Below are positions 4,207 to 59,426 of a stretch of DNA of 59,426 nt, in pieces (position 1 is the first letter of the stretch; every line of letters begins with the position of its first letter). Origin of the DNA: a virus; the IMG/VR virus record IMGVR_UViG_3300046542_000282, positions 1 through 59,426 of that record, one strand, 5' to 3'. The notes beneath the pieces were generated by a model, which worked only from the letters and a program-made list of their open reading frames with translations, was not told where the DNA came from and made no database searches. The position numbers were made by a program, and so were the translations under genes.

Positions 4207-4230
4207 ATCGGCTCCTTCAGGTTCTTCGAG

Positions 4231-4308
4231 TGCCCCGCCGCGGATTCGAACCGCGCGCCCGCCGGCACTGGGGGTGCCGGGTGTGTTCGGGCGATGCCTC
4301 AGCGGGGC
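4231..4308 (-). tRNA. tRNA-like gene, possible tRNA-Gly(CCC)
   Basis: Read leftward, a 7-bp acceptor stem (GCCCCGC/GCGGGGC, base 73 A) and a perfect T arm (CGCGG, TTCGAAT, CCGCG) are present. The middle hairpin can form with a CCCCCAG loop, giving anticodon CCC. However, U33 is replaced by C, the D arm does not pair well and the variable region is long. It may be a degenerate tRNA or a tRNA mimic. Confidence 0.5.
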
Positions 4309-4516: not shown

Positions 4517-4540
4517 GTCCGTGAATTCCTTGCGTGACTC

Positions 4541-4573
4541 GACTATCGCACAGTTATGGCGACCACCACAACA
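4541..4573 (-). promoter_or_regulatory. Leftward promoter candidate, TTGTGG-18-GATAGT family, copy 3
   Basis: Same conserved block as at 1721 and 2771. An 18-bp palindrome copy (4588-4605) in the opposite sense lies upstream. It should drive the basic 54-aa gene, the tRNA-like gene and the membrane/sortase cluster to the left. Confidence 0.65.
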
Positions 4574-4587
4574 TGCCCGGGGAAGTT

Positions 4588-4605
4588 CCGTGAAACGACT
4601 TGCGG
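4588..4605. repeat. 18-bp imperfect palindrome, copy 3 (reversed)
   Basis: CCGTGAAACGACTTGCGG, which on the minus strand reads CCGCAAGTCGTTTCACGG. It is the same element as at 1769 in the opposite orientation and sits just after the stop of the gene at 4608. Confidence 0.65.
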
Positions 4606-4607
4606 AC

Positions 4608-5183
4608 CTACTCGTCCGCGAGGAACTGCGCGAGGTGGATGACGTCCGCGGCCGAGGTGTGCTCGACGCCGGCCAGCAGCTCCTTAGCGGCGCGGACATG
4701 GGCGGCGTGGCGGCTGACGACGGGCTCCGGCTCGTCGGCCGGTGACTCTCCCATGAGGTCGCGCTCCCAATCGGCCAGCGGGGCGGGCTCGGTGACGACC
4801 TTTTCCCAGTTCTCCGCGTCGCGGAAGTACCAGTAGCCATCGTTCGCGGGGTCATCCACGACCACCAGCGTGTCGCGCACCTCGTGCACGGTGAACACGT
4901 CGCCGCGACTTACGTCGGCGTACTCCGCGTCGTCGACGAGGATCCGGATCTTGTCGCCCGGCTTCAGGGGCGAAGGCTCCTCCTCCTTCGCCTCTCCCCT
5001 ATTGATCTCGTCGGCCAGGGCGAGGATGCCGCGGGCGAAGACACGAGCCTTCGACGCGGAGAGGTAGGTCTCCATCTTGTGTTCCCCGTTGTGGACGGCC
5101 TCCAGCTCGACGGCGTCCCCGTCGCGGCGTGCGGTGATGGTGTCGAGGCTGGAGGCGTTGCAGGTGGCTACGTACTCGGTCAC
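4608..5183 (-). CDS. Modular KOW/SH3-like protein, 191 aa, paralogue of 5233-5712
   Basis: The GTG start at 5183 follows CGAGGAGAGAAC; a longer frame would read through the leader repeat and lacks a ribosome site. Three parts can be seen: an N-terminal region ending in ARVFARGILALADE, a central KPGDKIRILVDD type KOW/SH3-like module, and a C-terminal helix SAADVIHLAQFLADE. The next gene has the same order and a matching C-terminal helix. Its function is unknown. Confidence 0.75.
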   Translation of the reverse strand: MTEYVATCNASSLDTITARRDGDAVELEAVHNGEHKMETYLSASKARVFARGILALADEINRGEAKEEEPSPLKPGDKIRILVDDAEYADVSRGDVFTVHEVRDTLVVVDDPANDGYWYFRDAENWEKVVTEPAPLADWERDLMGESPADEPEPVVSRHAAHVRAAKELLAGVEHTSAADVIHLAQFLADE

Positions 5184-8103: not shown

Positions 8104-10032
8104 TCACTTCCGGCGCTCCTCCGCGGCTGCAGCCTCGTCCGGATGGGCCGCATACCACGCGTCATTGTCGATCATCGTCGCTGCTTTCTTCATGTAGAGA
8201 GACCCCCAGGACGCCCCGCCCACGTCCGGGTCGGTGTCAAGCGGGATGCCGCGGAGGGTTGCCGACATGGCCTCCCCGATCTCCCGGGCTACCTCTTCGG
8301 CCTCGTTGTCAGTGGCATCCGCAATGATTTCGTCATGGACCGGAAGCAGCACATGCGGAGTGAGGCCACGACTGTGGATCTCCAACATCCCCTGAGCGAA
8401 GATGTCCCGAGCCGTCGACTGGATCTCCCCGTTGAAGGAGGCGTAGGCGGCATCCCGGTCGAAGACGAGTCGACGACCGGAGGGGGTGCGCAGGGTGTAT
8501 CCGTTGCGGATGACCTGGCCCTGAAGACTCCTGATGTACCGGGCGAGGCGCGGGTACGTCCGCTTGTAGCCCTTCACGGCGTCCTGCGCGGCCGACAGGC
8601 TGAGTCCGGTCTGAGCAGCAATGGTTTTCGCTCCTCCGCCGTAGGCGACGCCGAGCTGTACGACCTTCGCGACCTTGCGCTGACCTTTGGTGAAGTCCGG
8701 CCCGTAGACCGACGCTGCCGTCAGGTTGTGCAGGTCGGCACCCTCCAGGATCGCTGCCGTCATCCGCTCGTCACCCGACAGAGCCGCCATGACGCGGGGC
8801 TCGACGGACGAGTAGTCGACGGAGATCATGCGTCGACCGGGGTCCGCCACCACGCAGTGCCGAACCTCCCACTTGCCCGAAGGGAGCTGCTGAAAGGGCG
8901 GGTCAGAGATCGACATGCGAGCCGTGCGGGCGGCCAGCGCGCCGATCTTCGGGTGTACCCGATCGTTCTCGTCAGCCGTCCGGAGCATGGCCTCTGCGTA
9001 CGACGTGCGCCACTTCGACGCTCGCTTACTGCGGAGTATCGCCATCGCTAGAGGGTTCGGGATGCGCGACTCGATCTGCTCCCAATCCTTGTCGACGTCG
9101 GCCAGTCGCTTCAGAACCTTTCCGTCAACCTGAACCGCTCCGCCGGCCGTCCGCTCAGTGATCTTCTCCCCCATGCCGAGGAGCGCTTCGGACACCTGAC
9201 GAGTGCTGTTGATGTTGGCTACGCCGTACTTGGCAGCCTCCGCGGCCCACCGCTCCGACTCCTCCAGGAGCTGCGACGACAGCCGGGTGGTGTAGTCGCG
9301 ATTGATCCGCATGCCGCGACGCTCAATGAGGGCACAGACGAATCCCACCTCGTGCTCAAAGGGGATGAGCGCGGGATTGATTCCCAGCTCCCGAACGCGC
9401 GCCTGGACCTCCGGCAGGAGTCGGGACGTCAAGATCACGTCCCCTCCGGCGTAGCTCAGATACAGCGGGTTGTCGATGTCGATGTGAGCCCAGCCAGTGT
9501 CTTTCGTGTGGCCGATCTTGTGGAACTCGTCGTACAGCCCCGCGGCTGTGTCCGGGGCGGAGGGGTCGACGTAGTGCGCGGATGCATCCTTCAGGCCGTT
9601 GCCGACGCCTCCCTGGTCCTTTCGTCGGGGGTCGGAGAGGTGGCTGAAGATGTACGTGTCGAGCGTCTTCGGCGCCATCTCCTCCAGGGTGATTCCGGGA
9701 ATGTGGCGGTCGGAGGCCAACATGTCGAAGTTGCGGTTCTGCATGGACAGACCCGGCAGGGTCCGCAGGGCCCACGCCGCGAGCCGCTGGAGGTCGTCTC
9801 CCTTCTCCACCTGCAGCACCCAGGCTTCGTCTGGAGTTCCGAACTGGGCTGTGCGGATGCGGAATCCCGGAGAGAACGTGGCGAGCCCGGTCGTCTCCGT
9901 GTCGTACGCAACCCTCTCGCCGGCGTTCGACCGGTCGATGATGTAGCGCTGGAAGGCCCGATAGTCGTCGACGGTCTGAGGGACGCGGACGGGGATGCTC
10001 TTCCCCAGCACGGGAAAGCTGTGTTCGATCAT
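8104..10032 (-). CDS. Family A DNA polymerase with 3'-5' exonuclease, 642 aa
   Basis: Replicates the phage DNA. The exonuclease domain opens with DTETTG (residues 44-49) and continues to about 200. Polymerase motif A is near residue 402 (SVDYSSVEPRV), motif B near 447 (RKVAKVVQLGVAYGG) and motif C near 567 (VHDEI). The length is usual for actinophage PolA proteins that lack the 5' nuclease domain. Its ATG overlaps the primase-helicase stop as ATGA, so the two are translationally coupled. Confidence 0.93.
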   Translation of the reverse strand: MIEHSFPVLGKSIPVRVPQTVDDYRAFQRYIIDRSNAGERVAYDTETTGLATFSPGFRIRTAQFGTPDEAWVLQVEKGDDLQRLAAWALRTLPGLSMQNRNFDMLASDRHIPGITLEEMAPKTLDTYIFSHLSDPRRKDQGGVGNGLKDASAHYVDPSAPDTAAGLYDEFHKIGHTKDTGWAHIDIDNPLYLSYAGGDVILTSRLLPEVQARVRELGINPALIPFEHEVGFVCALIERRGMRINRDYTTRLSSQLLEESERWAAEAAKYGVANINSTRQVSEALLGMGEKITERTAGGAVQVDGKVLKRLADVDKDWEQIESRIPNPLAMAILRSKRASKWRTSYAEAMLRTADENDRVHPKIGALAARTARMSISDPPFQQLPSGKWEVRHCVVADPGRRMISVDYSSVEPRVMAALSGDERMTAAILEGADLHNLTAASVYGPDFTKGQRKVAKVVQLGVAYGGGAKTIAAQTGLSLSAAQDAVKGYKRTYPRLARYIRSLQGQVIRNGYTLRTPSGRRLVFDRDAAYASFNGEIQSTARDIFAQGMLEIHSRGLTPHVLLPVHDEIIADATDNEAEEVAREIGEAMSATLRGIPLDTDPDVGGASWGSLYMKKAATMIDNDAWYAAHPDEAAAAEERRK

Positions 10033-12515
10033 GCCGCGCCCTCCTTCGGCTGGCCAAAGATGTCGGTCAGTTCGTCAGTGCCTTCTGCGTCCGACGCTTC
10101 CTCTGCGCGCGTACGGATCTCCCGCTCCTCGTCGGTCATGAGCCGGATCCCGTTGAAGCCCCAGCGACCCGAGCGCTTGTCCTTGTTGAACCCGCGCGAC
10201 TCCAGCTCGACGCCGAGAGCCCACCCGGACAGAACTTCCTTCCGGGAGAGACCCGCGTCCTCCGCCCACTCCGCATAGGCGCGCCGGACGGCCATGGGAG
10301 CGACCCGCGCGGCGGGCTCCTGGACGAGTCGGGCTGCGATGAACTCCGCGAGCCGATCTTCCGACTCGCGATAGTCCTGCGTAGCAGTGGCAACGGACGA
10401 CGGCTCTTCGAGCCCCGTCGCGTACCACTCCTGTGCACCGCGGACGGCCCACGCAAGGATTCCTTCTGCCTCATCCCGCAGCTTCGCGGGCAGGGAGGTA
10501 TCCGCCTTCGAGCCACGGAAGGTGGCCTCGAACGGGACGAGCTTGACCCGTCGCCACACTCCGAGATCCTGTGAGAGGATCGCCGGCTTGTAGTTGCCCG
10601 CGACCATCAGCAGGAAGCGCGGGACGTAGGTGAACGGGTTCTGGTTCAGGAAGCGGCACGTCACCGGGTCTCCTCCGGTGAGTTGCTTGACCAGTGCCTC
10701 CGCGAGACGGCTGTACTTCTCCGTCTCCGACGCCGTGACGAGGCGAGCACCACGGAGCGACGCCAGTTCGGGCGATGCCTGGCCCACGTTCACGCGCTGC
10801 TCGAACGTCGAGAACTCCGTCGACTTCGTGACGCCGCGGAAGACGTGGAGGAGCGCGTCCAGGAACGCGCTCTTCCCGTTCGCCCCCTGGCCGTGCATGA
10901 AGACGAAGCACTGCTCAGACGTCGAGCCAGTGATCCCGTAGCCCACGAGCCGCCGCATGAACGCCGGCAACTCCGGGTGGTGGGGGAAGATCTCCGTCAG
11001 GAACGCTTCCCACCTCGTCGCCGGGGCCGCAGGGTTGTACGCAACGTCGAGCCGCTTCGTGATCATATCCGCGGGAGTGTGCGGGTGGATCGCTCCGGTG
11101 CGGAGGTTGACGGTCCCGTTCGCCACGGAGAGCAGCTCGGGGTGCGCGTCGAAGGCGTCGGCCGACGCGGGGACGCCAGGGACGGACGGAAGCTCCTTCA
11201 AGATGCCGTCGATGTGCCGGTTGGTCAGCGCCTTCAGAGCTAGCTTCCGCTCGAAGTCGGAACCCTCCGCGATCATCTCTGCGCCCATGCGGTGCAGCGC
11301 CTCGCGAACGGAGTCCGTGTTCTGCGTCCAGATCGTCCCGTCCCACACGAGGTAGCCGAGTCCCCTGGCGTAGCGCACTCCCCCGCCCATGCGACGCATG
11401 TAGTCGCGCAGGCGTACAGCCAGGCCGACGTCAGTGCCGTCAAACAACTCACGCGACGACTGCGACATGGTCTGAAGTGCGGTGTCCGTGTCCTGGACGT
11501 CAGGCTCCGTCGACGGTGCGGGAGCCGGAGCCTTGGGCGCCTCCAGCTCTACAACGGGAGCCGACCGGACGGCACGGTGCAGCTCTGCGGGGAACTCCTC
11601 CGGCGTCCGCTCGCGCCAGGCCGTCAGGTCCTCCCCCGTGTTGGGGAAGGGGAGTTGCCGCGGGTGGTTGCCGTCCTCCACAAGCGCTGTCGCCAGTGCG
11701 CCGATACCCCGCGCTCCAGCGTCGTCGGGGTCGAAGGCCAGGACGACGTCACGACCGCGGAGATGCCCGACGAGTTCCGCGACAAGGGCAGCGTTACGGG
11801 CCAGTCCGGCGCCGCGGATGATGAGCGCGTCGTATCCGACGCCGACGGAGGTCAGTCCGTCCCCGGGGCCTTCGGTGACGAGGATGGTGTCATAGCCTGC
11901 GCCGGCCGTCAGGAGTCCGTACTTCGCCCACGTCCGCCCGTCGACGTTCGTCAGGGATACCCACCGTGCGGGACACTTGCCCGACAGGTCACGCCCCTGG
12001 AGTCCGCGGACCACGCCGTCGAAGCCGGTGAGCGGGACGGTAAGACGCGGGTAGCGGGTGAAGGAGCGGGAGAGCCAGGGCTGAGTACGGTCTGCCGGCG
12101 CTGAGAATCCGACGCCCAGATCTACGGCCTGATCGACCGAGAGACCGAATCGGAGGTCGAGGTAAATCAGTGCTGCCCCGGAGTCCGGGCCCTCCAGTGC
12201 GGCCGTCGTCTCGTCGACGAACACCCGCAGTCCGGCAATTTCCCCGGGGCCGATCGTCTCGGGAGCCTTCGCGCTGACGGTCTTCACGCCCTGGCCGTCG
12301 ACGTCGAAGAGCGCCGACTTCGGGAGTCGCATCTTCGACAGGATGTCGTCCAGCTCACATCCCGTCCGGCAGATCATGAGGAGCTGCCCGCCCTCCTTCA
12401 GCGTCAGCTTCAGCGACGGGTGCGCGCGGTCGTTGTGCGCGGGGCAGAACGCAAGGTATCCGTCGTGGTCCTCCTCCACTCCGTCGAGCCGCCCCAGAAT
12501 CTCCGTCAGTCGCAA
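10029..12515 (-). CDS. Primase-helicase (zinc finger, Toprim, SF3 D5-like), 828 aa
   Basis: Primes and unwinds DNA at the fork. An N-terminal zinc-binding region has CPAHND and a CRTGC pair (within residues 20-60). A Toprim domain has TEGPGDG near 210 and an FDPDDAG acidic motif. The C-terminal half is a D5/SF3 helicase with Walker A GQGANGKS near 541 and a following Walker-B-like and sensor region ending MVAGNYKP. I chose TTG 12515, directly after GGGGAGAGACC. The upstream ATG at 12536 would place the ribosome site inside the gene. Confidence 0.88.
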   Translation of the reverse strand: MRLTEILGRLDGVEEDHDGYLAFCPAHNDRAHPSLKLTLKEGGQLLMICRTGCELDDILSKMRLPKSALFDVDGQGVKTVSAKAPETIGPGEIAGLRVFVDETTAALEGPDSGAALIYLDLRFGLSVDQAVDLGVGFSAPADRTQPWLSRSFTRYPRLTVPLTGFDGVVRGLQGRDLSGKCPARWVSLTNVDGRTWAKYGLLTAGAGYDTILVTEGPGDGLTSVGVGYDALIIRGAGLARNAALVAELVGHLRGRDVVLAFDPDDAGARGIGALATALVEDGNHPRQLPFPNTGEDLTAWRERTPEEFPAELHRAVRSAPVVELEAPKAPAPAPSTEPDVQDTDTALQTMSQSSRELFDGTDVGLAVRLRDYMRRMGGGVRYARGLGYLVWDGTIWTQNTDSVREALHRMGAEMIAEGSDFERKLALKALTNRHIDGILKELPSVPGVPASADAFDAHPELLSVANGTVNLRTGAIHPHTPADMITKRLDVAYNPAAPATRWEAFLTEIFPHHPELPAFMRRLVGYGITGSTSEQCFVFMHGQGANGKSAFLDALLHVFRGVTKSTEFSTFEQRVNVGQASPELASLRGARLVTASETEKYSRLAEALVKQLTGGDPVTCRFLNQNPFTYVPRFLLMVAGNYKPAILSQDLGVWRRVKLVPFEATFRGSKADTSLPAKLRDEAEGILAWAVRGAQEWYATGLEEPSSVATATQDYRESEDRLAEFIAARLVQEPAARVAPMAVRRAYAEWAEDAGLSRKEVLSGWALGVELESRGFNKDKRSGRWGFNGIRLMTDEEREIRTRAEEASDAEGTDELTDIFGQPKEGAA

Positions 12516-12541
12516 GGTCTCTCCCCTCTCGTGCATGCGGA

Positions 12542-21569: not shown

Positions 21570-21760
21570 GCCGCCTCCCACTCCACCGTCGTGTGCTCGT
21601 CCATGTCCATGTAGAGCGCGTCGAGGTCGTCCTGACTCATCTCGACAGTGGCCACAGTGCGGCCGGCCGCGTCCCTCACGTGGAGGTCGTACTCGACGCC
21701 GCGGGGCGTGATGGTGACCGACGAGCCGTCGGCCGTGTGGATGGTGGACGAGCGCTTCAT
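21566..21760 (-). CDS. Hypothetical protein, 64 aa
   Basis: Starts at ATG 21760 with GAAGGAGG upstream and is coupled at both ends. Beta-rich N-terminus, acidic helical C-terminus. No family recognised. Confidence 0.65.
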   Translation of the reverse strand: MKRSSTIHTADGSSVTITPRGVEYDLHVRDAAGRTVATVEMSQDDLDALYMDMDEHTTVEWEAA

Positions 21761-22089
21761 GCTTCCTCCTTCGCCTCCGCCACAAGGCGGGTTGTCTCTG
21801 CGATGAACTCGATTGCCTGTGCGGCGGTGACTTTCTTGTCCGTCGCCCCCACCCAGGGGGCCCCGGTCGACGTCCAGTAGTGAGCGGGTTTGCCCTCTAT
21901 GGCGCTGATCGACAGGACTCGAAAGTCCGTGTACGTCGGGGCCCCCCACCACGATTCGGGGACGTAATCCGGCGTCGCCCGAACGATCGGCTCTGCAGGC
22001 GCGAACACGCCCCGGGCCGTCTGCTTCCAGCCGTGCTCTTTCAGTGCCGTCACGACGTCGGCCAGCGCCACTCGCTTCTGTCTCGCCAC
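21757..22089 (-). CDS. Hypothetical protein, 110 aa
   Basis: Starts at GTG 22089 after GAGAGGAA. The N-terminal ADVVTALKEHGWKQTARGVF resembles a small winged-helix or toxin-antitoxin-like fold. The C-terminal helix is acidic. First gene of a run of coupled small genes that ends at 19194. Confidence 0.65.
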   Translation of the reverse strand: MARQKRVALADVVTALKEHGWKQTARGVFAPAEPIVRATPDYVPESWWGAPTYTDFRVLSISAIEGKPAHYWTSTGAPWVGATDKKVTAAQAIEFIAETTRLVAEAKEEA

Positions 22090-23812: not shown

Positions 23813-24243
23813 TCGCTCTCCCCCTTCAGCCGCGCGATCTCCCGCGCCTGGCTCACGATGACGGCCTTCAGCTCATCGACGTCATCGTCCGACGTCAGCC
23901 CCGTCACCTGATACCGCAGGTACTCGACGCTCCGCATCAGCTCGTCCCGCTCAGCCGTCACAACACGCAGGTCTCGACGCAGAGGGGCCGTGTTGTCCTG
24001 CCGCTCCGCAAGCGACTTCCACAGCTCCGCTTGCGCGGCTGCCTCGTCGCGCTCGCGCTCCAGCTCCCGCGCCCGTTCCGTAGTCATCGCCGTCGCCAGG
24101 GAGGCATACATGTCGCGAGACATGCCGACGACCACGCAGTCACGCGCGCCTTCCGGGTCACCACTGGTCACTCCCAGGAGCGTGACCCCGTCGAGCGCCA
24201 AGTCAACCGTCCCGTTGGCTTCGTGCTTGATCTCGAATCTCAT
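23809..24243 (-). CDS. Coiled-coil protein, 144 aa
   Basis: Starts at ATG 24243, coupled to the exonuclease stop. A beta-rich N-terminus (50 residues) precedes a long heptad-like coiled coil (ERARELERERDEAAAQ ... LRRDL). Possibly an oligomeric partner of the exonuclease next to it; not shown. Confidence 0.65.
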   Translation of the reverse strand: MRFEIKHEANGTVDLALDGVTLLGVTSGDPEGARDCVVVGMSRDMYASLATAMTTERARELERERDEAAAQAELWKSLAERQDNTAPLRRDLRVVTAERDELMRSVEYLRYQVTGLTSDDDVDELKAVIVSQAREIARLKGESE

Positions 24244-25043
24244 GCCGCCCGCCTCTGCGTTCCGGTGACCATCTCCCCGCCGCTCGCGATGGGCCGGCCG
24301 ACGACGCCACGCTTGCCGCCCGCCTCCCAGTCGAAGACGCCGCGGAGGTGGAGGAAGGTCTCGTAGATCTCCTCGTCGCACTTGACGGGCACGAACTGCC
24401 AGCCTTCGGGGCGGACGTGCAGCACGGCTCCGCCTGCCATCTCCGGGACGGGAATGGACGATCCGTCCGACGCCAGGATGATGCGGTCCGCGTACCGGTA
24501 GGCCGAGAGCTGCAACGCCACGGAGTCGTAGACGCTCTTGCTAGTCTTCCAGTCGAGGACGACCGTCTCTCCGTCGACGACCGCGATCGCGTCGAAAGAG
24601 CCGGCGTAGTGATGGGTGTCGCTCCACACCGTCTCTTCGAGGTAGAGGAACTCCGGCTGTACCTCCTGGAGGAACTCCGCGAACCACCGGACGTGAGGCT
24701 TCACGTCCACGTGCACGTGCCGCGTGTTGATCGTCTCGCCGCGCGCCATGCGCTCGAAGAGGTCGTGAGCCGCAGACCCCAAGTCACTCGCGGCTGTCGA
24801 CTTCCGACGGTGCGCGTTCTTCAGGTAGTCGATCGCGCCCTTCGGGTCGCGCTTGACCAGCTCGGAGACGATGTCCCAGTTGTTGACTGCTGCCTCCGCG
24901 GCCTCCTTCGCTGCCCAGAACGTCAGGAAGTCCTTCGGCAGCATGCCGCCGACGCTCGTCACGCCGGGTACCTTGATCGCGCCGTCGTCGGGGTCGATGT
25001 AGAAGCGGGACCCGCCCCGCTTGATCGTGCTCACTCCAGCCAT
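24240..25043 (-). CDS. RecB/Cas4-like PD-(D/E)XK exonuclease, 267 aa
   Basis: Nuclease core in order: GSFDAIAVV (near residue 147), LDWKTSKS (near 163, the D/E-x-K) and QLSAYRYAD (motif QxxxY). The family resects DNA ends in phage recombination and replication. It is the first gene after the 25078 promoter and heads a run of coupled genes. ATG 25043 follows GCAGGAGG. Confidence 0.82.
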   Translation of the reverse strand: MAGVSTIKRGGSRFYIDPDDGAIKVPGVTSVGGMLPKDFLTFWAAKEAAEAAVNNWDIVSELVKRDPKGAIDYLKNAHRRKSTAASDLGSAAHDLFERMARGETINTRHVHVDVKPHVRWFAEFLQEVQPEFLYLEETVWSDTHHYAGSFDAIAVVDGETVVLDWKTSKSVYDSVALQLSAYRYADRIILASDGSSIPVPEMAGGAVLHVRPEGWQFVPVKCDEEIYETFLHLRGVFDWEAGGKRGVVGRPIASGGEMVTGTQRRAA

Positions 25044-25077: not shown

Positions 25078-25106
25078 GTTATGGGGCGCAGGCTGCGGGA
25101 TGTGAC
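25078..25106 (-). promoter_or_regulatory. Leftward promoter candidate, GTCACA-17-CATAAC family
   Basis: GTCACA, 17 bp ending GCGCCC, CATAAC, then TGTGTAAG. It lies 35 bases upstream of the exonuclease start and about 57 bases downstream of the nested palindrome at 25164-25236. Confidence 0.7.
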
Positions 25107-25163
25107 GCGCGACTTCGGGGAGTTTCCGCCTCCTCCCCCGGTGGTCAGAGTGCACGCCAAAAC

Positions 25164-25236
25164 GCCAAACTAACCCCCCTTTTCACTTCTCTCTATAACG
25201 CGTTAGAGAGAGTTAGAAATAAGGGGTTAGTTTGAC
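25164..25236. promoter_or_regulatory. Nested palindrome element, copy A
   Basis: Outer arms are GCCAAACTAAC (25164-25174) and its inverted copy with one change (25226-25236), centres 62 bp apart. The centre is the perfect palindrome TAACGCGTTA (25196-25205), flanked by CTCTCT and AGAGAG. It is AT-rich for this genome. A second copy lies at 54906-54978 with the same arm spacing. It looks like a multi-site protein-binding element (operator or origin), function unknown. Confidence 0.75.
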
Positions 25237-25284
25237 ACTCTGGACCAGCCGGAGGACGAGGAGGCGCGTGACGTCGAGGGGCGG

Positions 25285-26055
25285 TTAGGCTCCTGAGCTG
25301 GGCTTTTTCGTGTGCCGGCGCAGTCGGGTGATGGCCTTCTGGAGGGCGGCTAGCTCCTCGTCCAGTTTGGCGCGCTGCCCGTCGGTCATGTGCGTGTCGA
25401 CAACGCTTGTGTCGATCTGCCCCACAATGTTCCCTGCGACGTGGGCCAGCCGGAGATGGTCGGCCGTCGCCCTCACGATCATGCCGGCGCTGCCGCCTTG
25501 CTCGGGGACGCGCTCCTCCGCCTTCGTCCCCTTTTTAGCCGGCTTCGACGGCTTCGCTGGGGTGGAGACTTCGGCAGCCGTGCTCACCTTGACGGCCGCC
25601 AGTAGCGCGGAGTTCGTCGCCCTGATGTCCTGCTGTCGCTCCAGCGGCGAAGTGTCGAGTAGCTCCAGCGCGTTCAGCTCACGCGGCGTCAACTGGCGTC
25701 GCAAGCCGTTGCCCACGTGATAGCGCACCGTCGCCTGTAGCCTCGTCAGCCTGTCGCCCTTGACGCCCGACAACCGGTACACCTCTGACGCTACTTGACG
25801 GTACGGGTACGTCCTGCCGAGCCAGTCACCGTGTTGCCTGCGGAGCGCCAGGAGCACTGTCGCGATGTTCATCGCAAGGATGGTCGGTTTGTCCTCGATG
25901 GCTGCGTACTCGCGGGCGTAAGCTGCGCCACGTGCGACGAGCTGCTGCTCTGACTCGTCCTGGATATCTTCGAGCCGTAGCGTGGGCAGGCCTTCGACGT
26001 CGACGGGCGCCACGTCGTCCACGCTTGTGCGGGCGACATCCTTAGGGCTCATCAT
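25285..26055 (-). CDS. Unrecognised helical protein, 256 aa
   Basis: Starts at ATG 26055 behind GAGAGGT. Residues 15-125 are helical with an HTH-like YRQVASEVYRLSGVKGDRL stretch. A Lys/Pro-rich flexible linker (about 160-180) joins it to a C-terminal helical region ending in a basic tail. The composition suits a DNA-binding or partition-like regulator. It ends 49 bases from nested palindrome A, so it is one candidate to bind it. No family assigned. Confidence 0.7.
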   Translation of the reverse strand: MMSPKDVARTSVDDVAPVDVEGLPTLRLEDIQDESEQQLVARGAAYAREYAAIEDKPTILAMNIATVLLALRRQHGDWLGRTYPYRQVASEVYRLSGVKGDRLTRLQATVRYHVGNGLRRQLTPRELNALELLDTSPLERQQDIRATNSALLAAVKVSTAAEVSTPAKPSKPAKKGTKAEERVPEQGGSAGMIVRATADHLRLAHVAGNIVGQIDTSVVDTHMTDGQRAKLDEELAALQKAITRLRRHTKKPSSGA

Positions 26056-36052: not shown

Positions 36053-39000
36053 TCAGACCCACCTTCCGTTGTTGAGTGCGTCGGCGTTGGCAGACTCGCG
36101 TGCGTCGACCTCGACGCGAACGATGTCCGTGATCTCTCGGTCGCCGACGAAGACGCGCACGTCGGCATGAACCGTGGTGGCTCCTCCCCCGCCCTTGCTT
36201 GCGCGGATGTCCTGCCACTGGGACCCGGTGAACACGGGCTCGGGCTTCCCTGTGCCGTTGGCGACGAGGGAGAGGCCAGGCGGAATCAACCCGCCGTCGT
36301 CGTACCAGTGCGGACTGCGGCTCAGCCACTTCGAATACGCGACGGCTGGAGTGCCGTAGTCGGGGCGGTGCTTGATGTAGTCCATGCCCCACTTGATCTG
36401 CGTCCGCGGGTTCGTCAGCCAGTCAGAGCCGGCCGACGCCATTTTGTTCCCGGGCAACGCCTGCGGGATGCCGTAGGCGCCCGACGAGGGGTTCTTCGCG
36501 TTGTAGCGCCATCCGCTCTCGCCGTCCCAGAGCTTCTGGAGCGGTCCGAATTGCCCGATGCCCCAGCCGTAGTTACCGAGAATGCTCTTCGCGTAGGTCT
36601 GCGCTGCACCCTTGGCTGCGGACGTGAAGCCTCCGCCTCCCGTCAGGTAGCTCATAGGGTCGACGGGCGTTCCGTTCCGTCGCGCCTCCAGGTGGAGGTG
36701 AGGGCCAGTGACGTTGCCCGTTGCACCGGACTTGCCGATCTCCTGGCCTTGCTTCACGACCTGGCCGGCAGAGGTGATGATCCGGCTGAGGTGTGCGTAC
36801 AGGGAGGAGAGGCCTCCACCGTGCGAGATCTCCACGTGGTTGCCGTAGGGGCCACCACCCGCGGCGAACGTGACCTTGCCGTCGTCGACGGCGTTGACCC
36901 TCGTCCCGACGGGTACCGGGAAGTCCAGGCCCGTGTGATGCCCGGACGACCACATCTTGCCGGCCACGCCGAAGCGCGTTCCGAAGGCTGCGTTAACGGG
37001 CTTGATCCACTGCCCGCCCGTGCCTTCGGAGGCGAAGAGGAGCGACTCCGCGGCGTCGACTATCTTGTCCTTCAGCCCCGCCATCATCTTGAGCGGGTAC
37101 TTGCCGATGGCGGAACCGAACTTGCCAGCCACACCGACGCCGTCAGTGATGCGGTTCACGATCGGCTTCATGAGCCCCGTCCAGACCTTCGACGGGTGGA
37201 TCAGGAGATCCGCGCCAGTCTTCGCCCAGTCGATGCCCTTACCGATGACGTCGGAGACAGTGTCCTTCGTCCAGTCCCACGCCCCACCGACAACTCCGCC
37301 GGATTCGAGGAGCTGCGTTCCTGCGGCCTGATGCAGCGAAAGCGCGCGGCTCCTGTACTTCGGATCCGTCGGGATGACGTATTCGGGGTACCGGGGGTTT
37401 CCCTCACCAACGATTGCCGTCGGCCGGTTCGTCTTCATCGGAACCGCGGGTCCCCAGCCATTGCCGACTGTTCCGCCCGCCTCCAGGAGCTTAGGAGCGG
37501 CAGGAAGATGCGGCAGCTTGACGAAGTCAGCCACGCGATCCCAGACGGCCTTAATTCCCTTTGTGTAAACCCATTCGATAATGAAGTTCACGGGCTTTTT
37601 GGCGATGTCGGAGACCTTGCTCCAGGCCTTACCGATAAGCGTCTTCGCGGTGTCGAACGCGTCAGAGACGAGCCCTAGGGCCGACTTTATCTTGTCGAAC
37701 GCGGGCTTCAGGCCCTTGTCGTACAGCCAGTTCGCCTTATCCGCTATCCACTCAGCCGGCGGTCTCACTCCGTGGTCGTACAGCCACCTGAACTTGTCGC
37801 CGACCCACTTCAGCCCGTCCCAGATGAACTTGAACGCCGGAGCGAGCATCTTAGTCCAAAGCCAGGATGCCTTGTCGGATATCCAGCCGAGCGACGGTCT
37901 TACCGCGTTGTTGTAGAGCCAGACGAACTGATCGCCCAGCCACTTGATTCCGTCCCAGATGAACTTGAACGTGGGCTGCAGGATCGTCGTCCACAGCCAC
38001 GTTGCGATCATCGCAATTCCCTCGAAGGAGGGTTTGAACCCGTCCGTCCAGAGCCACATCGCTATGCCGCCAAGTGCTCGCAGCACGATAATGATGGGCG
38101 CGACTACGGCCGTGACCAGCACCGCGAACAGGATCCGTGCGACCAGCCATATCCCCTTGAAGGCTGGCTCGATGGCATTCTTCCAGAGCCAGACGGAGGC
38201 CGTCCCGATGGCCTTCAGTCCGGTCCAAATTCCGTCGAACGCGGGCTTCAGCACGCTGTTCCAAAGGAATAGCGTTGCGATCTTTATGCCCGTCCAAGCA
38301 CCGTCTACTGCGTCGCGGAACCACCCGACGTTCTTGTACGCCCAGATGATGCCGATGACGAGCGCGGCAACTGCCAGGACGATAGCCTCGATCAGCGGGA
38401 CAATGCCCGTCGCCTGAATAGCTGCTGCCCATCCGGATGTCACCAGAGTGGCGCCGGCTACCGCAATCGTGTAGAGATGCATAGCGACGGCAAAGGCCGC
38501 CATGCCGAGTTGGATAGCCTTGTTTACGGTGTATATCCCCCACAGGAGCTGAATCACCCACGGCGCATTCGTCGCAATCCACGACAGGCCGTCGATCATG
38601 GGTCCCACGACCGCAAACATGTCGGCACTGAGCGGGGCTATTGCCTGCGCCAGGTCGAGTGCGGACCTCAGGATCTTGCCGAGGAACTCCGCCAGTCCGG
38701 GCGACGTGTCCTTGACGTACTTGAGGAACCGCTCGAATTCCGGGCTTCCCTTAAGGTTCTTCCCCCAGTCGGCGAAACGGCCTGTGATCCGCTGCATGGT
38801 GTCGGAAATTCCGTCCATGTGCGGGAGGAAGGCGTCGACGATTCCCGCCATACCCGTCAGCAGGTTGCCGAACGCAATGCCGAGACCTACGATCGCAGGC
38901 TTCGCGCTCTTGTCAATGTCTTTCTTGAAGTCCTTCCAGAACGGCGTCTTCAGCGCCTTGGACGCTTTGTCCATGAGGATCCCGACGGCGTCCGCGGCAC

Positions 39001-41167
39001 CCGTTACCAGCGGTGTCAGCGCCGGGAGCGAGTTCTTCGCGCCGTCGACGCCACGCGTGAAGAGCGGGAGGACGTCAGGCTGTAGCGACGTCGACCAGTC
39101 CTTGAAGGCCTTCGTCAGACCCTTCGGGCCGGCGATGGAGTCATAGAGGTCGCGCTGATCCGGGGTGAGCTTCGCGAGTGCCTTGCGATACTCATCCGCC
39201 TTCGTCGCTGCCTTCGCTGTCGTGTTGATGCCCGACAGGCGGGCAGACTCAAGGCCACGCTCCGCAGACCGCACGGACTCCGCGGCTTGGACCTGCGTAT
39301 CCGCAGCGTTCGAGACAGCGTCCGCCAAACCGCGCTGAGCGTCGGCAACGGACTGTGCAGCCGCCACCTCTGCGCGTGCGGCCTCCCGATGCGCGTCGGC
39401 AACGGCCTTGACCTGATCCGCTACGTTCTGCTGAGCATCCGAAAGTTGCTGTGCGGCTCGCTTGACGGCATCGTTGCCGTCGACACCTTCCTTGCGGGTT
39501 TTCTTGGCGTCGGCCTGGAGCTGCGTATAGCTCTTGGACTGTTCCTTCTGCGCCTGGACAGCTTGGTCGTAGCTGAGCTGCGCTCTGGCCAACTGACCAT
39601 CAGACGCGGTGCCAGCCGCATTCGACGCCTGCACACGAGACAGCTCGTCGGCTGCCTCCTGGACGCGCAGGGCGGCGTCACGCTGACTCAGTGCGCCGTC
39701 GGTAAGTTTGTCGTTCAGGTCGCTGAGCTGCTTCGCGGCGTCCTGCCGTGCCTGCGTGAGATCCTGCTCAGACTGGCGCGCGCTGCGCTGAGCGTCGGAG
39801 AGGGACCGTTCGGCGCGGGCCACGTTGTCCGCTGACTGACGTCGCTGGTCGGAGGCACGCTGCACGGCCTGTGCTACGGCACGTTCCGCGTCCTCCACCT
39901 GACGGTTAGCCTGCGAGATGGACCGGGCAGCGTTGCGGTACGCAGCGCCTAGAGCTTGCTGCGCGCCCTGCATCTGCAGCGCCTGTTGCTCAGCCTTGAC
40001 GCCCGCTGCAGCCGAATTGCTCGTCGCACTTGCGGCTTCCTTGTCCGCGGCCGTCTTCGCCTGAATGACGGTAGTGACGCCCTTGATCGCTGGAATAGCG
40101 GCCAGGGCCAGGGCTCCGACTCCCGCACCTGCGGCAGTTGCGGCGGCTGCGACGGCTCCGATGCCAGCCGCAAGGACCGGACCGAGCGGGATGGCCGTCA
40201 GGATGGCCATTTGGATCCCGAGCCCCATCAGGGCTGACGTCGCGTGGGATGTGTCCGCGAACGCCTTGATGTGGACGAGCTTCAGACTGTCGGCTTCGGC
40301 GTCCAGTGCTGCCAGTTCAGCAGCGGCGCGAGCGGCGTCAACACGGACGTCTATGTCGTGGTGCTGAACCGACAAGATCTCCAGGCGCGTTTGGATGGCC
40401 TGAATCTCTGCCAGTGCGGCGCCGGCGTCGATGTCGATCCCAACCCGCGCGTTCGACAGGAGCGCGAGCCGTTCACGTAGCGCCTGAATCTCAACGCGCG
40501 CGGGCGAGGTGTCCGCGTCCACGTTGATGTTCGGGAGTGACGCCTGAGCCTCTGCCACGACGGCGCGGAGCTTAGCGCCAAACGAGCCGTCGACCTCCAG
40601 TGCGATTTTCTGCCGGCCGCCCACGGCTGCTATCTCCGCGCGGATCTCCGCCAGAGCAGCGCGTGCGGCTGCCGTGTCAGCTCGCACGGCGACGTTCGGA
40701 TGTTCGGCGCCCAGCTCGCGGAGTTTGGCCTCAAGGCGGGTAATCTCCGCCTCAGCCGCCTCTGCGCTGACGTCGATGCCGATCCGCTTGTTGCTGAGCT
40801 GCTCCAGCTTCGCCCGGATGCGCGCGAGTTCGGCGTCAACGCCCGTGTCACCGAGCTTGACGTCCAGTTTCGGCATGGCCTTGAAGGCAGCTTCGAGCTT
40901 CCGTCGGATGGAGCGCGCGAAGGCTCCGCCCGCGTCGTCACCCTGCCGTCCGGCAGCGCGTACGCCCGCCTTTCCACCTGCGTTGATGGCGTCGGGGATG
41001 GAGATCACGATGTGCTTCGATATCGCCTCCCCCATGCGTCGGCCGGCGTCTTCACCGACACGGTCCGCGATGGGGAGTACGAGAGCTTTCAGCTTCGTGT
41101 GGAAGTTGGGGACGATGGGGACAACGTCAACCGCTGCCCCACCGACAATGTCCAGGTCGCCCGCCAT
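36053..41167 (-). CDS. Tape measure protein with M23 peptidase and SLT-like domains, 1704 aa
   Basis: Sets tail length and helps DNA entry. Long coiled-coil regions fill residues 60-320 and 380-680, hydrophobic segments lie near 320-370 and 860-1030, and Trp-rich repeats at 1030-1150. Residues about 1405-1510 form an M23 peptidase (SSGHHTGLDFP and the HLHLEA metal motif). Residues about 1535-1620 form a transglycosylase-like domain (GESGW, NPSSGAYGIPQ). The two domains could open peptidoglycan during injection. ATG 41167 follows GCAGGAGG. Confidence 0.92.
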   Translation of the reverse strand: MAGDLDIVGGAAVDVVPIVPNFHTKLKALVLPIADRVGEDAGRRMGEAISKHIVISIPDAINAGGKAGVRAAGRQGDDAGGAFARSIRRKLEAAFKAMPKLDVKLGDTGVDAELARIRAKLEQLSNKRIGIDVSAEAAEAEITRLEAKLRELGAEHPNVAVRADTAAARAALAEIRAEIAAVGGRQKIALEVDGSFGAKLRAVVAEAQASLPNINVDADTSPARVEIQALRERLALLSNARVGIDIDAGAALAEIQAIQTRLEILSVQHHDIDVRVDAARAAAELAALDAEADSLKLVHIKAFADTSHATSALMGLGIQMAILTAIPLGPVLAAGIGAVAAAATAAGAGVGALALAAIPAIKGVTTVIQAKTAADKEAASATSNSAAAGVKAEQQALQMQGAQQALGAAYRNAARSISQANRQVEDAERAVAQAVQRASDQRRQSADNVARAERSLSDAQRSARQSEQDLTQARQDAAKQLSDLNDKLTDGALSQRDAALRVQEAADELSRVQASNAAGTASDGQLARAQLSYDQAVQAQKEQSKSYTQLQADAKKTRKEGVDGNDAVKRAAQQLSDAQQNVADQVKAVADAHREAARAEVAAAQSVADAQRGLADAVSNAADTQVQAAESVRSAERGLESARLSGINTTAKAATKADEYRKALAKLTPDQRDLYDSIAGPKGLTKAFKDWSTSLQPDVLPLFTRGVDGAKNSLPALTPLVTGAADAVGILMDKASKALKTPFWKDFKKDIDKSAKPAIVGLGIAFGNLLTGMAGIVDAFLPHMDGISDTMQRITGRFADWGKNLKGSPEFERFLKYVKDTSPGLAEFLGKILRSALDLAQAIAPLSADMFAVVGPMIDGLSWIATNAPWVIQLLWGIYTVNKAIQLGMAAFAVAMHLYTIAVAGATLVTSGWAAAIQATGIVPLIEAIVLAVAALVIGIIWAYKNVGWFRDAVDGAWTGIKIATLFLWNSVLKPAFDGIWTGLKAIGTASVWLWKNAIEPAFKGIWLVARILFAVLVTAVVAPIIIVLRALGGIAMWLWTDGFKPSFEGIAMIATWLWTTILQPTFKFIWDGIKWLGDQFVWLYNNAVRPSLGWISDKASWLWTKMLAPAFKFIWDGLKWVGDKFRWLYDHGVRPPAEWIADKANWLYDKGLKPAFDKIKSALGLVSDAFDTAKTLIGKAWSKVSDIAKKPVNFIIEWVYTKGIKAVWDRVADFVKLPHLPAAPKLLEAGGTVGNGWGPAVPMKTNRPTAIVGEGNPRYPEYVIPTDPKYRSRALSLHQAAGTQLLESGGVVGGAWDWTKDTVSDVIGKGIDWAKTGADLLIHPSKVWTGLMKPIVNRITDGVGVAGKFGSAIGKYPLKMMAGLKDKIVDAAESLLFASEGTGGQWIKPVNAAFGTRFGVAGKMWSSGHHTGLDFPVPVGTRVNAVDDGKVTFAAGGGPYGNHVEISHGGGLSSLYAHLSRIITSAGQVVKQGQEIGKSGATGNVTGPHLHLEARRNGTPVDPMSYLTGGGGFTSAAKGAAQTYAKSILGNYGWGIGQFGPLQKLWDGESGWRYNAKNPSSGAYGIPQALPGNKMASAGSDWLTNPRTQIKWGMDYIKHRPDYGTPAVAYSKWLSRSPHWYDDGGLIPPGLSLVANGTGKPEPVFTGSQWQDIRASKGGGGATTVHADVRVFVGDREITDIVRVEVDARESANADALNNGRWV

Positions 41168-53840: not shown

Positions 53841-53917
53841 GTGGCCTCCGTGGTGTTCTCCGGCAGCCTCTGCCTCCGGCGGAGCCCTGTGACCGGGATG
53901 TCCGGTCGCCGGATGAG

Positions 53918-53990
53918 TCGGGGTGGCCGGTCTCGAACCGACGACCTCCCGCTCCCAAAGCGGGCGCGCTACCAACTGCGCTACACCCCG
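53918..53990 (-). tRNA. tRNA-Pro(TGG)
   Basis: Read leftward: acceptor CGGGGTG/CACCCCG with A73, D arm with AGTTGG, anticodon stem CCCGC/GCGGG with loop TTTGGGA (anticodon TGG), and a T arm with TTCGAGA. All four arms pair well. No encoded CCA. Confidence 0.92.
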
Positions 53991-53993
53991 GCG

Positions 53994-53999
53994 TAGAAT
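53994..53999 (+). promoter_or_regulatory. -10 box for a leaderless plus-strand gene
   Basis: TAGAAT followed by six bases and GTG 54006. The -35 region would lie within the tRNA-Pro gene and is not clear. Confidence 0.5.
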
Positions 54000-54005
54000 G
54001 TTCGT

Positions 54006-54167
54006 GTGGATATTAGCGACGAGGAGTTTGAGGCTCTGCTAGCTGCCTCGTCACTCGGCACCCCTGAAGCTCAGCGCTTGATTGCGGAGGTGCCCCCGGA
54101 GGTAGCGCGTCGACTACACGAGGCCGTCAAGGCGGCCGCTGCTCGTCGCGCTGCTGAAGCTGAGTAA
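54006..54167 (+). CDS. Small helical protein, 53 aa, between tRNA genes
   Basis: Opens at GTG 54006, six bases after a TAGAAT box and without a ribosome site, so probably leaderless. Acidic N-terminus (DISDEEFEALL) and an Ala/Arg-rich C-terminal helix. Encoded opposite to the flanking tRNA genes, which is unusual. No family recognised. Confidence 0.6.
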   Translation: MDISDEEFEALLAASSLGTPEAQRLIAEVPPEVARRLHEAVKAAAARRAAEAE

Positions 54168-54171
54168 CTGG

Positions 54172-54245
54172 AGCCTCCGGCGCGAGTCGAACGCGCGACC
54201 TCTGCTTTACGAGAGCAGCGCTCTAGCCATCTGAGCTACGGAGGC
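54172..54245 (-). tRNA. tRNA-Thr(CGT)
   Basis: Acceptor GCCTCCG/CGGAGGC with T73, D arm AGCTCAGATGGCTAGAGC, anticodon loop CTCGTAA (CGT), T arm GCGCG TTCGACT CGCGC. Canonical cloverleaf. Confidence 0.93.
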
Positions 54246-54248
54246 AAG

Positions 54249-54319
54249 TCCCTTCGCCCGGAGTCGAACCGGGATCAGCGCGACCACAACGCGCCGCTCT
54301 GCCATTGAGCTACGAAAGG
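54249..54319 (-). tRNA. tRNA-His(GTG), lacking the usual G-1:C73 pair
   Basis: Acceptor CCTTTCG/CGAAGGG with one G-T pair, D arm AGCTCAATGGCAGAGC, anticodon stem GCGCG/CGCGC with loop TTGTGGT (GTG), T arm CCCGG TTCGACT CCGGG. Base 73 is A and the base before position 1 is A, whereas bacterial tRNA-His normally has C73 paired to an extra G. Confidence 0.88.
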
Positions 54320-54698: not shown

Positions 54699-54905
54699 GC
54701 TGAGGACAGCCGGGGCCGCTCTACCGTGCTTCATACCCCGGAGGAGAGTGCGGGGGAGCACAGGAGCGGCGCCGGCCGTCGAGGAGGGGAGCGGACCGTC
54801 CGCCATTCGCGACGGCCGCACGTCCTCCCCTCCTACTACTGTTATGGGGCGTGACGGACGCGGTAGTGATCTTGGAATCGTCCGCCGACAGACCTGACGC
54901 AAACT
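54699..54905. other. Intergenic stretch without a clear gene
   Basis: About 200 bases with a second CATAAC block (54841-54846), a good ribosome site followed by GTG near 54825, and an open but unconvincing frame into the 54453 gene. It may be a leader or regulatory region. Confidence 0.4.
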
Positions 54906-54978
54906 GCCAAACTAACCCCCTTTTTCACTTCTCTCTTAACGCGTCTTAGAAGAGATAGAAATAGGGGGTTAGTTTGGC
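54906..54978. promoter_or_regulatory. Nested palindrome element, copy B
   Basis: Perfect outer arms: GCCAAACTAACCCCC and its exact inverted copy, with 11-mer cores at 54906-54916 and 54968-54978, centres 62 bp apart as in copy A. The interior is AT-rich with CTTCTCT/AGAAGAGA near the centre and ACGCGT. It lies between the integrase and the 54453 gene, upstream of CATAAC-type promoters as copy A does. Confidence 0.78.
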
Positions 54979-55050
54979 ACTTTGGGCCGAGCAGTGACCC
55001 AACGGGCTACGCAGGGCTACCAACTGGCGTCACTCCCTCACGTTCTGGAG

Positions 55051-55074
55051 TTATCCACAACCACCTGTGGACAA
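55051..55074. promoter_or_regulatory. Inverted pair of DnaA-box-like sites
   Basis: TTATCCACA (55051-55059) and TGTGGACAA (55066-55074, the complement of TTGTCCACA) face each other six bases apart. These equal the E. coli and Streptomyces DnaA box consensus. With the nearby AT-rich palindrome this could be a replication origin or a control site. Confidence 0.6.
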
Positions 55075-55184: not shown

Positions 55185-56879
55185 TCAGGTGCTCAGTTCG
55201 TCGGCCAGCGCCTCCAGTTCGTCCGCAGCGTCCGCGAGGAACTCCGCCTTATCCGGGTCGCTGAGGAACTCTGCCTTCACCTCGAAGTTCACGCGGCGTG
55301 GATCGAGCGTCCTCCATCCGCCACGGATAGCTTTCTTGACGGGGACGTAGACGCCGCAGTCCATGAGGAGTGAGCGACGCTCGTGGACGTCGCCTGCGTC
55401 CCACATCTGTGCGTACGTCATCGACTGCTCTTTCACGACGGTCCGCGCCTCTGTCTTCGGACGGGCCTCCAGCTCCCCGAGCCGGGCGTCCAGGGAGTCG
55501 TGCCTCTCCTGCCATGCGGCGATGGCGGCACGGGACTTCTGCTTCCCGCGCTCCGCAAGATGCGCCTTGAACTCCGCTTCGGTCTCTTCGATCTCCGGGG
55601 CGGGGTCGTAGCCGGGGATCCGCTCGTGCTCCAGGACGCGCACGCCTCCGAGCCGGCGGAGGAACTCCCGCTCGACGTAGTCCTCTGCCCACTCACGCTT
55701 GATGGAGGAGGGAGCGGGGCAGTGGCCGACGGGCGTGTTGTAGTGCTTACAGGCGTAGTTCTCCGCCGTGGTGCGCTTCTGGAGGTACATCCGCGCCCCA
55801 CACGCGTCGCAGTGCAGGACGCCCAGCAGCAGCGCGTTTGTGTCCTTGCGTTCAACGGTCTGCCGGGACTTCTCCGCGAAGATTTCGCCGATGTGGTCGA
55901 ACTCAGTTCGCGTGAGGATGGGCTCATCAGTGAACGGCACAGGAGCGCCGCTGACGGGGTCTCTGACGATCTGGCCCTTGTAGACCTTCCACCCGAGCAT
56001 TGCGTGTCCGGTGAGGATGTCTTTCACGGCTACGCCGGACCACCCGCGGGACGGCGCTTTCCCGTCGGAGTCGTCGTCCTGCGCGTTCTCCTCGGTGTCT
56101 TCAGGCTCGTCGCTCTGCGCCGTTTCGGCGTCCCGGAATGCCTGGCGTCGCGCCGCCCAGTATTGCCACGGAGTGGGGATCTCATCGTTCGTCAGACCCA
56201 CTGCAATGGCCGTGGCGCTTTTCCCTTTACGGGTGGTGGAGTTCTCGCCCTTCAGCTCCCGGATAGCCCGCTGAATCACTGCGACGGCGTCCGGGTCTGG
56301 CCTCAGCGTCCATCCCCCGGATTCCAGGCGACTCGGGACGTAGCCATAGGGAGGGCGCCCGCCTTTCCACCTGAGTTTCATCTGACGGATAGCCGCATGG
56401 GCGCCTGTTACGCGCTCTTTGGTGCTCAGTCGCTCCACCTGCGCCGCGAAGGCAAAGAGCATCATCATGAGCTCTGCCATCGGGTCCATGGGGTTGCGGA
56501 AGTCGAAGATCAGCCGCCCGGCGTTACCGACGCCTTCGTCAAAGACGAGCATCTTCCGGTGCTCTTTTGCCCACTTCGCCAGGTCGTGCATGTCCGTCAT
56601 GGACGCGATGGCGCGGTCGAACCGCCACCACACGATGGCGTCATACTCGTCGGGACGCGCTAGCCACTTGCCTAGCTGCGGACGGTTGAAGGGGCTGAAC
56701 TTCAGGGCGGAGACGTCGAGGTCGACAGCCTCCCGCAGGTCGTCACCTTCGCCGAAGTCAATGTCCAGTGCTGCGGCCGACTTGTTGCCGGCCTCCCGCT
56801 GACGGTCGACGCTCGTCGTCGAGTCGGTAAGCACTGACAGCCTGATAGCACGCAGGCCACGCAGCCGCGTTGCAGCCAT
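55185..56879 (-). CDS. int: Large serine integrase, 564 aa
   Basis: Site-specific recombinase for integration and excision. The N-terminal resolvase domain has the catalytic Ser near residue 15 (RLSVLTD) with DRQRE following, and WWRFDRAI with the active-site Arg. The recombinase domain starts near 165 (RWKGGRPPYGYV). A zinc ribbon has CDACG and later Cys residues at about 355-390, and a coiled coil lies near 435-485. ATG 56879 follows GGGAGGG. Works with a directionality factor, probably the protein at 18323. Confidence 0.93.
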   Translation of the reverse strand: MAATRLRGLRAIRLSVLTDSTTSVDRQREAGNKSAAALDIDFGEGDDLREAVDLDVSALKFSPFNRPQLGKWLARPDEYDAIVWWRFDRAIASMTDMHDLAKWAKEHRKMLVFDEGVGNAGRLIFDFRNPMDPMAELMMMLFAFAAQVERLSTKERVTGAHAAIRQMKLRWKGGRPPYGYVPSRLESGGWTLRPDPDAVAVIQRAIRELKGENSTTRKGKSATAIAVGLTNDEIPTPWQYWAARRQAFRDAETAQSDEPEDTEENAQDDDSDGKAPSRGWSGVAVKDILTGHAMLGWKVYKGQIVRDPVSGAPVPFTDEPILTRTEFDHIGEIFAEKSRQTVERKDTNALLLGVLHCDACGARMYLQKRTTAENYACKHYNTPVGHCPAPSSIKREWAEDYVEREFLRRLGGVRVLEHERIPGYDPAPEIEETEAEFKAHLAERGKQKSRAAIAAWQERHDSLDARLGELEARPKTEARTVVKEQSMTYAQMWDAGDVHERRSLLMDCGVYVPVKKAIRGGWRTLDPRRVNFEVKAEFLSDPDKAEFLADAADELEALADELST

Positions 56880-59335: not shown

Positions 59336-59426
59336 TAGCGGCACAACGCAAAGAGCCCCCGCCGGGTGACCGACGGGGGCTCTTGTGTGCTCAGTACTTG
59401 CCGCCTCGCGCGGCCCGTACCTTATC
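59300..59426. repeat. Terminal direct repeat, copy 2
   Basis: Identical to bases 1-127. Joining the two copies gives a continuous DUF397 gene, terminator and minus-strand zinc-ribbon operon, so the sequence is circular. Confidence 0.95.
59351..59384. terminator. Bidirectional terminator (same as 52-85)
   Basis: Second view of the hairpin after the DUF397 gene, within the terminal repeat. Confidence 0.85.

Follow-up and report, generated by a model that had tools for sequence, protein, structure and literature searches.

In the satellite phage P4, the alpha protein binds iterons at two sites, ori and crr, and replication needs both of them. Alpha presumably belongs to the TIGR01613 family, as do the five primases scanned among the phages considered here. 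A second point of reference is the origins of SV40 and the papillomaviruses, which are served by SF3 helicases and place inverted initiator sites next to an AT-rich unwinding tract. We take the element described below to resemble these origins and its helicase to belong to the same superfamily. Phage phiC31 and its relatives are the basis of widely used integration vectors, and we know of no mapped replication origin for any of them. Within this phage group the operators of the phiC31 repressor (CIR) are also inverted repeats, and the Rho-independent terminators of phiC31 are presumably comparable as well, with long hairpin potential between transcription units. In the deposited P4 record, crr consists of two 120-bp repeats, and the alpha gene lies between crr and ori. 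The first crr repeat carries type 1 iterons at 4314 and 4323 (plus strand), 4366 and 4384 (minus strand) and 4398 (plus strand), with a pyrimidine-rich spacer past the first two; six further type 1 iterons are annotated at the origin.

The DNA analysed here (the window) is the whole 59,426 nt of IMG/VR record IMGVR_UViG_3300046542_000282. It is a phiC31-type Streptomyces phage. Among named phages Samy of S. ambofaciens comes closest to it, a 2.5-kb query matching at 71.6% identity over 90% of its length. The record ends in a 127-bp perfect direct repeat (1-127 = 59300-59426) and is probably a circle closed by overlap, whose unique sequence amounts to about 59,299 bp. At 4230-4308 and 53917-54319 lie four tRNA genes (Gly-CCC, Pro-TGG, Thr-CGT and His-GTG). 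An ORF of 1704 residues, which is probably that of the tail tape measure, contains two tandem 135-bp units, 72% identical, at 37725-37994. A repeat of 75 bp that includes GACTATCGCACAGTTATGGCGACC occurs three times (1716-1790, 2767-2841 and 4535-4609), possibly as further promoters or operators. The element of interest is present twice, as copies A and B:

25143-25247, minus strand: copy A, whole footprint; inverted half-sites flank an AT-rich pyrimidine/purine centre, in the gap between repressor and exonuclease genes
25156-25163, plus strand: extra half-site, GCCAAAAC, lying outward of the left arm of copy A by about one helical turn (read by eye)
25164-25177, plus strand: left arm of copy A, GCCAAACTAACCCC
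25178-25222, no strand assigned: AT-rich centre of copy A, pyrimidine-rich then purine-rich, with ACGCG mid-way; candidate unwinding region
25223-25236, minus strand: right arm of copy A, inverted
54890-54988, minus strand: copy B, downstream of an integrase-like gene and upstream of a tRNA and the right-end genes
24240-25043, minus strand: Cas4/RecB-type exonuclease, the first gene past copy A
25285-26055, minus strand: immunity repressor homologue, the gene preceding copy A, 60% identical to Samy gene 32
55185-56879, minus strand: integrase-like gene preceding copy B, which shares 22% identity with the integrase of Samy across 385 residues (E 3e-10)
10029-12536, minus strand: P4-family primase-helicase (TIGR01613; homologue of phiC31 gp9a), candidate initiator that would bind A and B

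An earlier reading, made from the sequence alone, had described copy A as a 73-bp element with paired GCCAAACTAAC arms and a perfect central TAACGCGTTA, shared in layout and sequence with a second copy 29.7 kb away. The left arm is indeed exact (25164-25174, plus strand); the right one (25226-25236, minus strand) has one mismatch, and it is in copy B that both arms are exact. At up to one mismatch GCCAAACTAAC has five matches in the window against 0.21 expected, one of them elsewhere, at 52163. The central TAACGCGTTA is present in copy A (25196-25205) and absent from copy B; it is the single match in the window at up to one mismatch, with 0.45 expected, and is thus not above chance. The likeness of the copies stands: copy B (54906-54978) is identical to copy A at 57 of 73 positions without gaps, at a distance of 29,742 bp. 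So does the AT-richness, the two holding ranks 1 and 2 among all 73-bp windows (57.5% AT in A and 56.2% in B, vs. 34.3% for the window). Read by eye, the symmetry of copy A reaches beyond the 73 bp first reported, to about 25143-25247.

The general design is that half-sites are repeated in each arm about one helical turn apart and mirrored in the opposite arm. The centre of about 40-60 bp is pyrimidine-rich on the left and purine-rich on the right in most clades, less so in phiC31, phiBT1, Dubu and BaileyBlu. With the iterons of A and B read by eye, this plan is like that of P4 crr, each repeat of which has a pair of direct iterons at 9 bp from one another, then a spacer rich in AT and in pyrimidines, then two inverted iterons and a fifth direct one. 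As in P4, two cis regions flank the primase gene, in the window and in its relatives. Unlike P4, the iteron is GCCAAACTAACC rather than TGTTCACC, and A and B resemble one another and lie 13-32 kb apart, whereas the two P4 sites are unlike in layout and separated by about 4.5 kb. Since the P4 iteron is absent, we class A and B as working like the P4 sites and not as P4-type. Our preferred reading, which we regard as probable, is that A and B are paired replication sites, bound by the helicase-primase and working like P4 ori and crr. The earlier remark that no element of this kind had been described agrees with our searches of the open-licence literature, which gave no description of the paired element, PMC11302927, PMC12924846 and PMC9942202 included.

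Samy has both copies at places corresponding to those of the window, its copy A being overlapped by a small annotated hypothetical gene on the opposite strand. A strict pattern retrieved 20 stretches from IMG/VR, of which 19 were real (L022, with no family genes nearby, was dropped), and a slightly looser one retrieved 24 stretches from bacterial genomes, 15 of them Streptomyces; the other nine, with family genes absent nearby, were dropped. Removal of duplicates, with genomes that occurred twice (L062, L063 and L069) counted once, left 38 oriented copies, 20 A (repressor upstream) and 18 B. The B label means integrase upstream or gene 95 downstream, so that the A/B context is partly a matter of definition; L019 was assigned to B by hand, using L044. 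The close pairs window/G002 and G008/G015 were kept as separate rows, G002 being left out of the permutation described below. Across the 38 copies AACTAACC is invariant and the next bases nearly so, as may be expected of copies retrieved with that pattern, and AACTAACC and GGTTAGTT together delimit 64 or 65 bp.

The sequence-only reading had inferred selection on the element, to be doubted if close relatives keeping both flanking genes lacked it. The outcome was the opposite. Of 19 loci retrieved through the primase alone, without the pattern, seven were already in the set, 11 were new and one (L156, partial) was left out; at least one copy was present in all 11 new genomes. Nine of these matched the element by BLAST, and the other two (G020 and G025) have a pair with changed arms. 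One copy only was present in six fully fetched records (G012, G014, G015, G016, G026 and G028). No integrase was found in those six, so the records probably stop short of the B side; copy B of G014 and that of G015 sit in the host genome (L071 and L082).

The pair extends well beyond the Samy clade. Sixteen of the 17 named phages of the phiC31 group that we examined, Samy included, have two copies at corresponding places, as does the window; the 17 were hand-picked for spread and are neither a complete nor a random sample. Sixteen phages were drawn from the records with an exonuclease match (264, of which 60 were listed), with Attoomi and Samy in addition. The hosts of the phages with paired elements come from four genera. 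The design is common to the group and the sequence clade-specific: phiC31, phiBT1, TG1, Attoomi, Dubu, BaileyBlu, MaGuCo, Cen1621, UtzChips and SpecialK all carry a sequence of their own in duplicate, once before the exonuclease and once after the integrase (in MaGuCo, UtzChips, Dubu, Eden and Elva the downstream part was covered). The phiC31 element also has matches at two places in Lilbooboo, Samora, Vash, Euratis and Shawty. Group-wide, the copy A site is the late/early boundary, which in the Samy clade is the gap between repressor and exonuclease. The exception among the 17 is Olliecat, whose single copy lies within an annotated gene, and this counts against the replication-site reading. 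In Hirko, which has a weak exonuclease match and no annotated primase or polymerase, no pair was found.

The pair is kept in the whole genomes of Dismas, Jovita and SunnyD, and in the covered parts of Eden and Elva, all without an annotated integrase or repressor. One copy is at the late/early boundary, where two or three small genes and then the exonuclease come after it, and the second is to the right of the polymerase region. The notion that integrase-less relatives lack the pair was rejected once a wider search had found it in these five phages. Dismas, Jovita and SunnyD (L109, L117 and L118) keep an annotated recombination directionality factor (RDF). Since this gene is kept in relatives without an annotated integrase, gp3 probably has a second role. 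Ranked by AT content among all 60-bp windows, both copies come within the top three in 15 of 18 genomes; the ranks are less extreme in Attoomi (9/3), Dismas (38/4) and Jovita (12/2). The spacing between A and B is 50% of the genome in the window and ranges from 33 to 53% over 12 genomes, so half-genome spacing was rejected as a general rule.

Promoter-like motifs adjoin both copies, and a transcriptional role would therefore fit too. The features in question, with a further pair of boxes near copy B, are:

25078-25106, minus strand: GTCACAT-N-CATAAC promoter-like motif beside copy A
54841-54856, minus strand: CGTCACG..CATAAC promoter-like motif beside copy B (read by eye)
55051-55074, no strand assigned: two inverted DnaA-box-like 9-mers, TTATCCACA and TGTGGACAA, facing each other, near copy B only

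The first of these bears out the CATAAC promoter that the sequence-only reading had placed near copy A; it is downstream of the copy. The GTCACAT..CATAAC motif has four copies in the window, all on the minus strand (6750, 19156, 25078 and 54670), and is a likely promoter of the Samy clade. In phiC31, GGTTGCC..CCTTCA/C, with about ten copies, seems to be its counterpart. On this basis A and B could be activator or silencer sites for the adjoining downstream promoters, turning on the early and right-end operons. Promoter-like motifs follow 11 of 20 A copies under a strict pattern, more by eye, and several B copies; GGTTGCC..CCTTCA is downstream of both copies in phiC31, and X91149 annotates a late lytic promoter 18 bp past the copy-B match. 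Nevertheless, the motifs also occur without the element, at 6750 and 19156 in the window and at 18489 and 23033 in phiC31, and the size, repeated half-sites and AT-rich centre of A and B surpass the usual operator. Nor are the regulators common to the genomes that have the pair. The earlier reading had proposed three binders, none of which is supported: the helix-turn-helix protein at 58269 is without a match in 7 of 11 clade genomes (some records may be cut), the protein at 25285 (the repressor) is 29-80% identical among the 11 and goes unmatched in the integrase-less phages, and tblastn with the sigma factor of Samy gave no match in G017 or in genomes beyond the clade. We therefore regard promoter regulation as unlikely; a replication-initiator site fits the distribution of the element better than a promoter operator does.

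An exact DnaA-like box lies within 700 bp of 14 of the 18 B copies, 84-102 bp upstream of them, and of none of the 20 A copies. Among 13 other named phages (some in part) the search for boxes returned one degenerate match, at 20193 in Cen1621. The 9-mers by copy B may instead belong to an integrase terminator.

The strong symmetry raises the possibility of a bidirectional terminator or other RNA hairpin, insulating the repressor and integrase transcripts. In either copy each strand forms a much stronger fold than its shuffled versions (z -5.3 to -8.9), and in temperate phages both copies come after lysogeny genes. Early terminators of phiC31 reportedly (a 1995 paper) have no poly-U tails. A scan for terminators with T runs found none at the element, and Rfam gave seven matches, all to microRNA hairpin families and far below the gathering scores. 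Read by eye, phiC31 has a separate GC-rich hairpin preceding copy A, and the retention of the pair in integrase-less relatives is a further point against insulation. Covariation was counted among the 38 copies; relatedness of the sequences inflates the counts, which are support and not proof. The outer half-site positions co-vary between the arms (256 paired cells vs. 220.5 expected, reached by 0 of 2000 shuffles). Positions 10-16, beside the arms, do so weakly (188 vs. 178, fraction 0.025), which favors a hairpin somewhat, and for the inner positions 10-26 no covariation was found (368 vs. 359, fraction 0.18), nor for 20-26. The RNAalifold covariation term is -0.36. G.U mismatches exceed A.C over the whole stretch (188 vs. 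136), a point for a hairpin, but are nearly equal to them at the inner pairs 10-26 (93 vs. 82). A and B thus differ from Rho-independent terminators in having no inner-stem covariation and sequence-constrained arms. Because the centre shows no base-pairing covariation, the hairpin is disfavored, and we consider it very unlikely to be what the element is for.

In six cases (G020, G025, G028, L164, L168 and L177) a changed arm has its counterpart in the opposite arm. In five others (L159, L160, L161, L175 and G026) the arms are unmatched, one arm being of the CTAGACCC or CTGACCC type and the other of the CTAACCCC type. Judged from these sequences, the half-site tolerates CTAACCCC, CTAGACCC and CTGACCC. 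The unmatched arms, together with the overall G.U excess, slightly lower our confidence in the replication-site reading.

An operator of the immunity repressor, silencing both regions in the lysogen, is suggested by the position of copy A next to the repressor gene in the Samy clade, phiC31, phiBT1 and TG1. This was rejected on two grounds. The pair persists in relatives for which no repressor and no integrase is annotated, which makes a lysogeny operator unlikely, and CIR of phiC31 (X91149) is a different 17-mer, CCTACTCACGTGAGTAG, whose 16 matches in phiC31 at up to four mismatches include none inside either element (21636-21768 and 40416-40547). In addition, the arms remain alike where the repressors drop to 29% identity, and we hold this explanation to be highly improbable. 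A partition, nucleoid-silencing or recombination site, which an AT-rich element in a GC-rich genome and two concertedly evolving copies might suggest, is scarcely credible, as the annotated attachment repeat of Samy is elsewhere, upstream of the integrase, integrase-less phages retain the pair, and mere AT-richness leaves the mirrored half-sites unexplained.

The copies within a genome evolve in concert. The mean likeness of A to B in the same genome is 0.845 (n = 13 genomes), vs. between-genome means of 0.692 (A-A), 0.678 (B-B) and 0.676 (A-B), and the excess is significant by permutation (p at most 5e-5; 12 genomes). A copy is closer to its own partner than to the best same-site copy elsewhere in 12 of 26 comparisons; otherwise a close relative equals or exceeds the partner. 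In the C10-9-1 prophage the cores of A and B are identical at 65 of 65 positions (L073/L074), in G005 they are nearly identical (L013/L023), and in G015 (L025/L082) the reverse complement of copy A is exactly copy B. These cases point to recent gene conversion, inverted orientation included.

To return to paired replication sites, the reading calls for an initiator common to the group. When 32 of the 98 Samy proteins were compared with 27 genomes by tblastn, which misses distant homologues, the exonuclease, gp3/RDF, primase and polymerase alone matched in all; a primase homologue is thus present in 27 of 27. The primase is above the TIGR01613 cut-off in all five phages scanned, that of the window included, and its helicase half matches by sequence two solved viral helicase-primases (C962R and 7ola). 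The last domain of the primase is 73-100% identical inside the Samy clade and 19-31% identical to that of the window between clades, vs. 45-57% for the helicase core. The model of the C-terminal half is poor (pLDDT 57.5), and the fold search used the 93-residue end only, which is modelled as a winged helix (pLDDT 87). This model matches the P4 origin-binding domain 1ka8 with a moderate score (Z 8.0, rmsd 2.8, 78 residues), a likeness of fold that in itself shows no function; it matches RFX DNA-binding domains better (Z 9.9 and 8.4), and the C-terminal domain of the ASFV PrimPol at 8.1. Foldseek with the same model returned no match at E of 0.001 or less, and 1ka8 was not among the best 50 of 268.

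The predicted recognition helix varies with the site. It reads (F/L)(Y/F)GA in eight phages with half-sites of TGACG/GGACG type and FYRA in six integrase-less phages with GGGC-type half-sites; Attoomi has FYDA, Dubu FLGA and the Samy clade ALGV. The half-site classes were read by eye, and both they and the helix variants are confounded with descent.

We share the earlier view that the element probably binds protein at its paired half-sites. The P4-family helicase-primase that the phage itself encodes would bind, through its C-terminal winged helix, the direct and inverted half-sites of each arm. Between the arms, the AT-rich centre would serve for duplex opening and helicase loading, and the origin would fire at A and B, which bracket the replication module (exonuclease, RDF, resolvase, primase and polymerase). 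A and B probably act together, as P4 ori and crr do. Of the 12 genomes in which GC skew was followed, two, the window and Samy, turn from negative to positive at A; the other ten do not, and we count this against an origin. More tentatively, and with some doubt, one may go further: temperate and virulent phiC31-type phages would have two similar palindromic origins that evolve in concert and are bound, perhaps bridged over 13-32 kb, by one helicase-primase; the five half-site classes would pair with the five recognition-helix variants as if they had co-diverged, and DnaA, the initiator of the host, would perhaps be recruited beside B only, in the Streptomyces phages of the Samy clade.

In closing, the A/B pair may be where phiC31-like phages start copying their DNA. 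If so, named phages that can be cultured would offer candidate origins some 100 bp long, one candidate domain for the initiator, and a natural set of variants in which site and initiator match. Where and how replication starts in phiC31-type phages would become directly testable, and the ori/crr plan would reach beyond the satellite P4 to ordinary phages, a large group of them.
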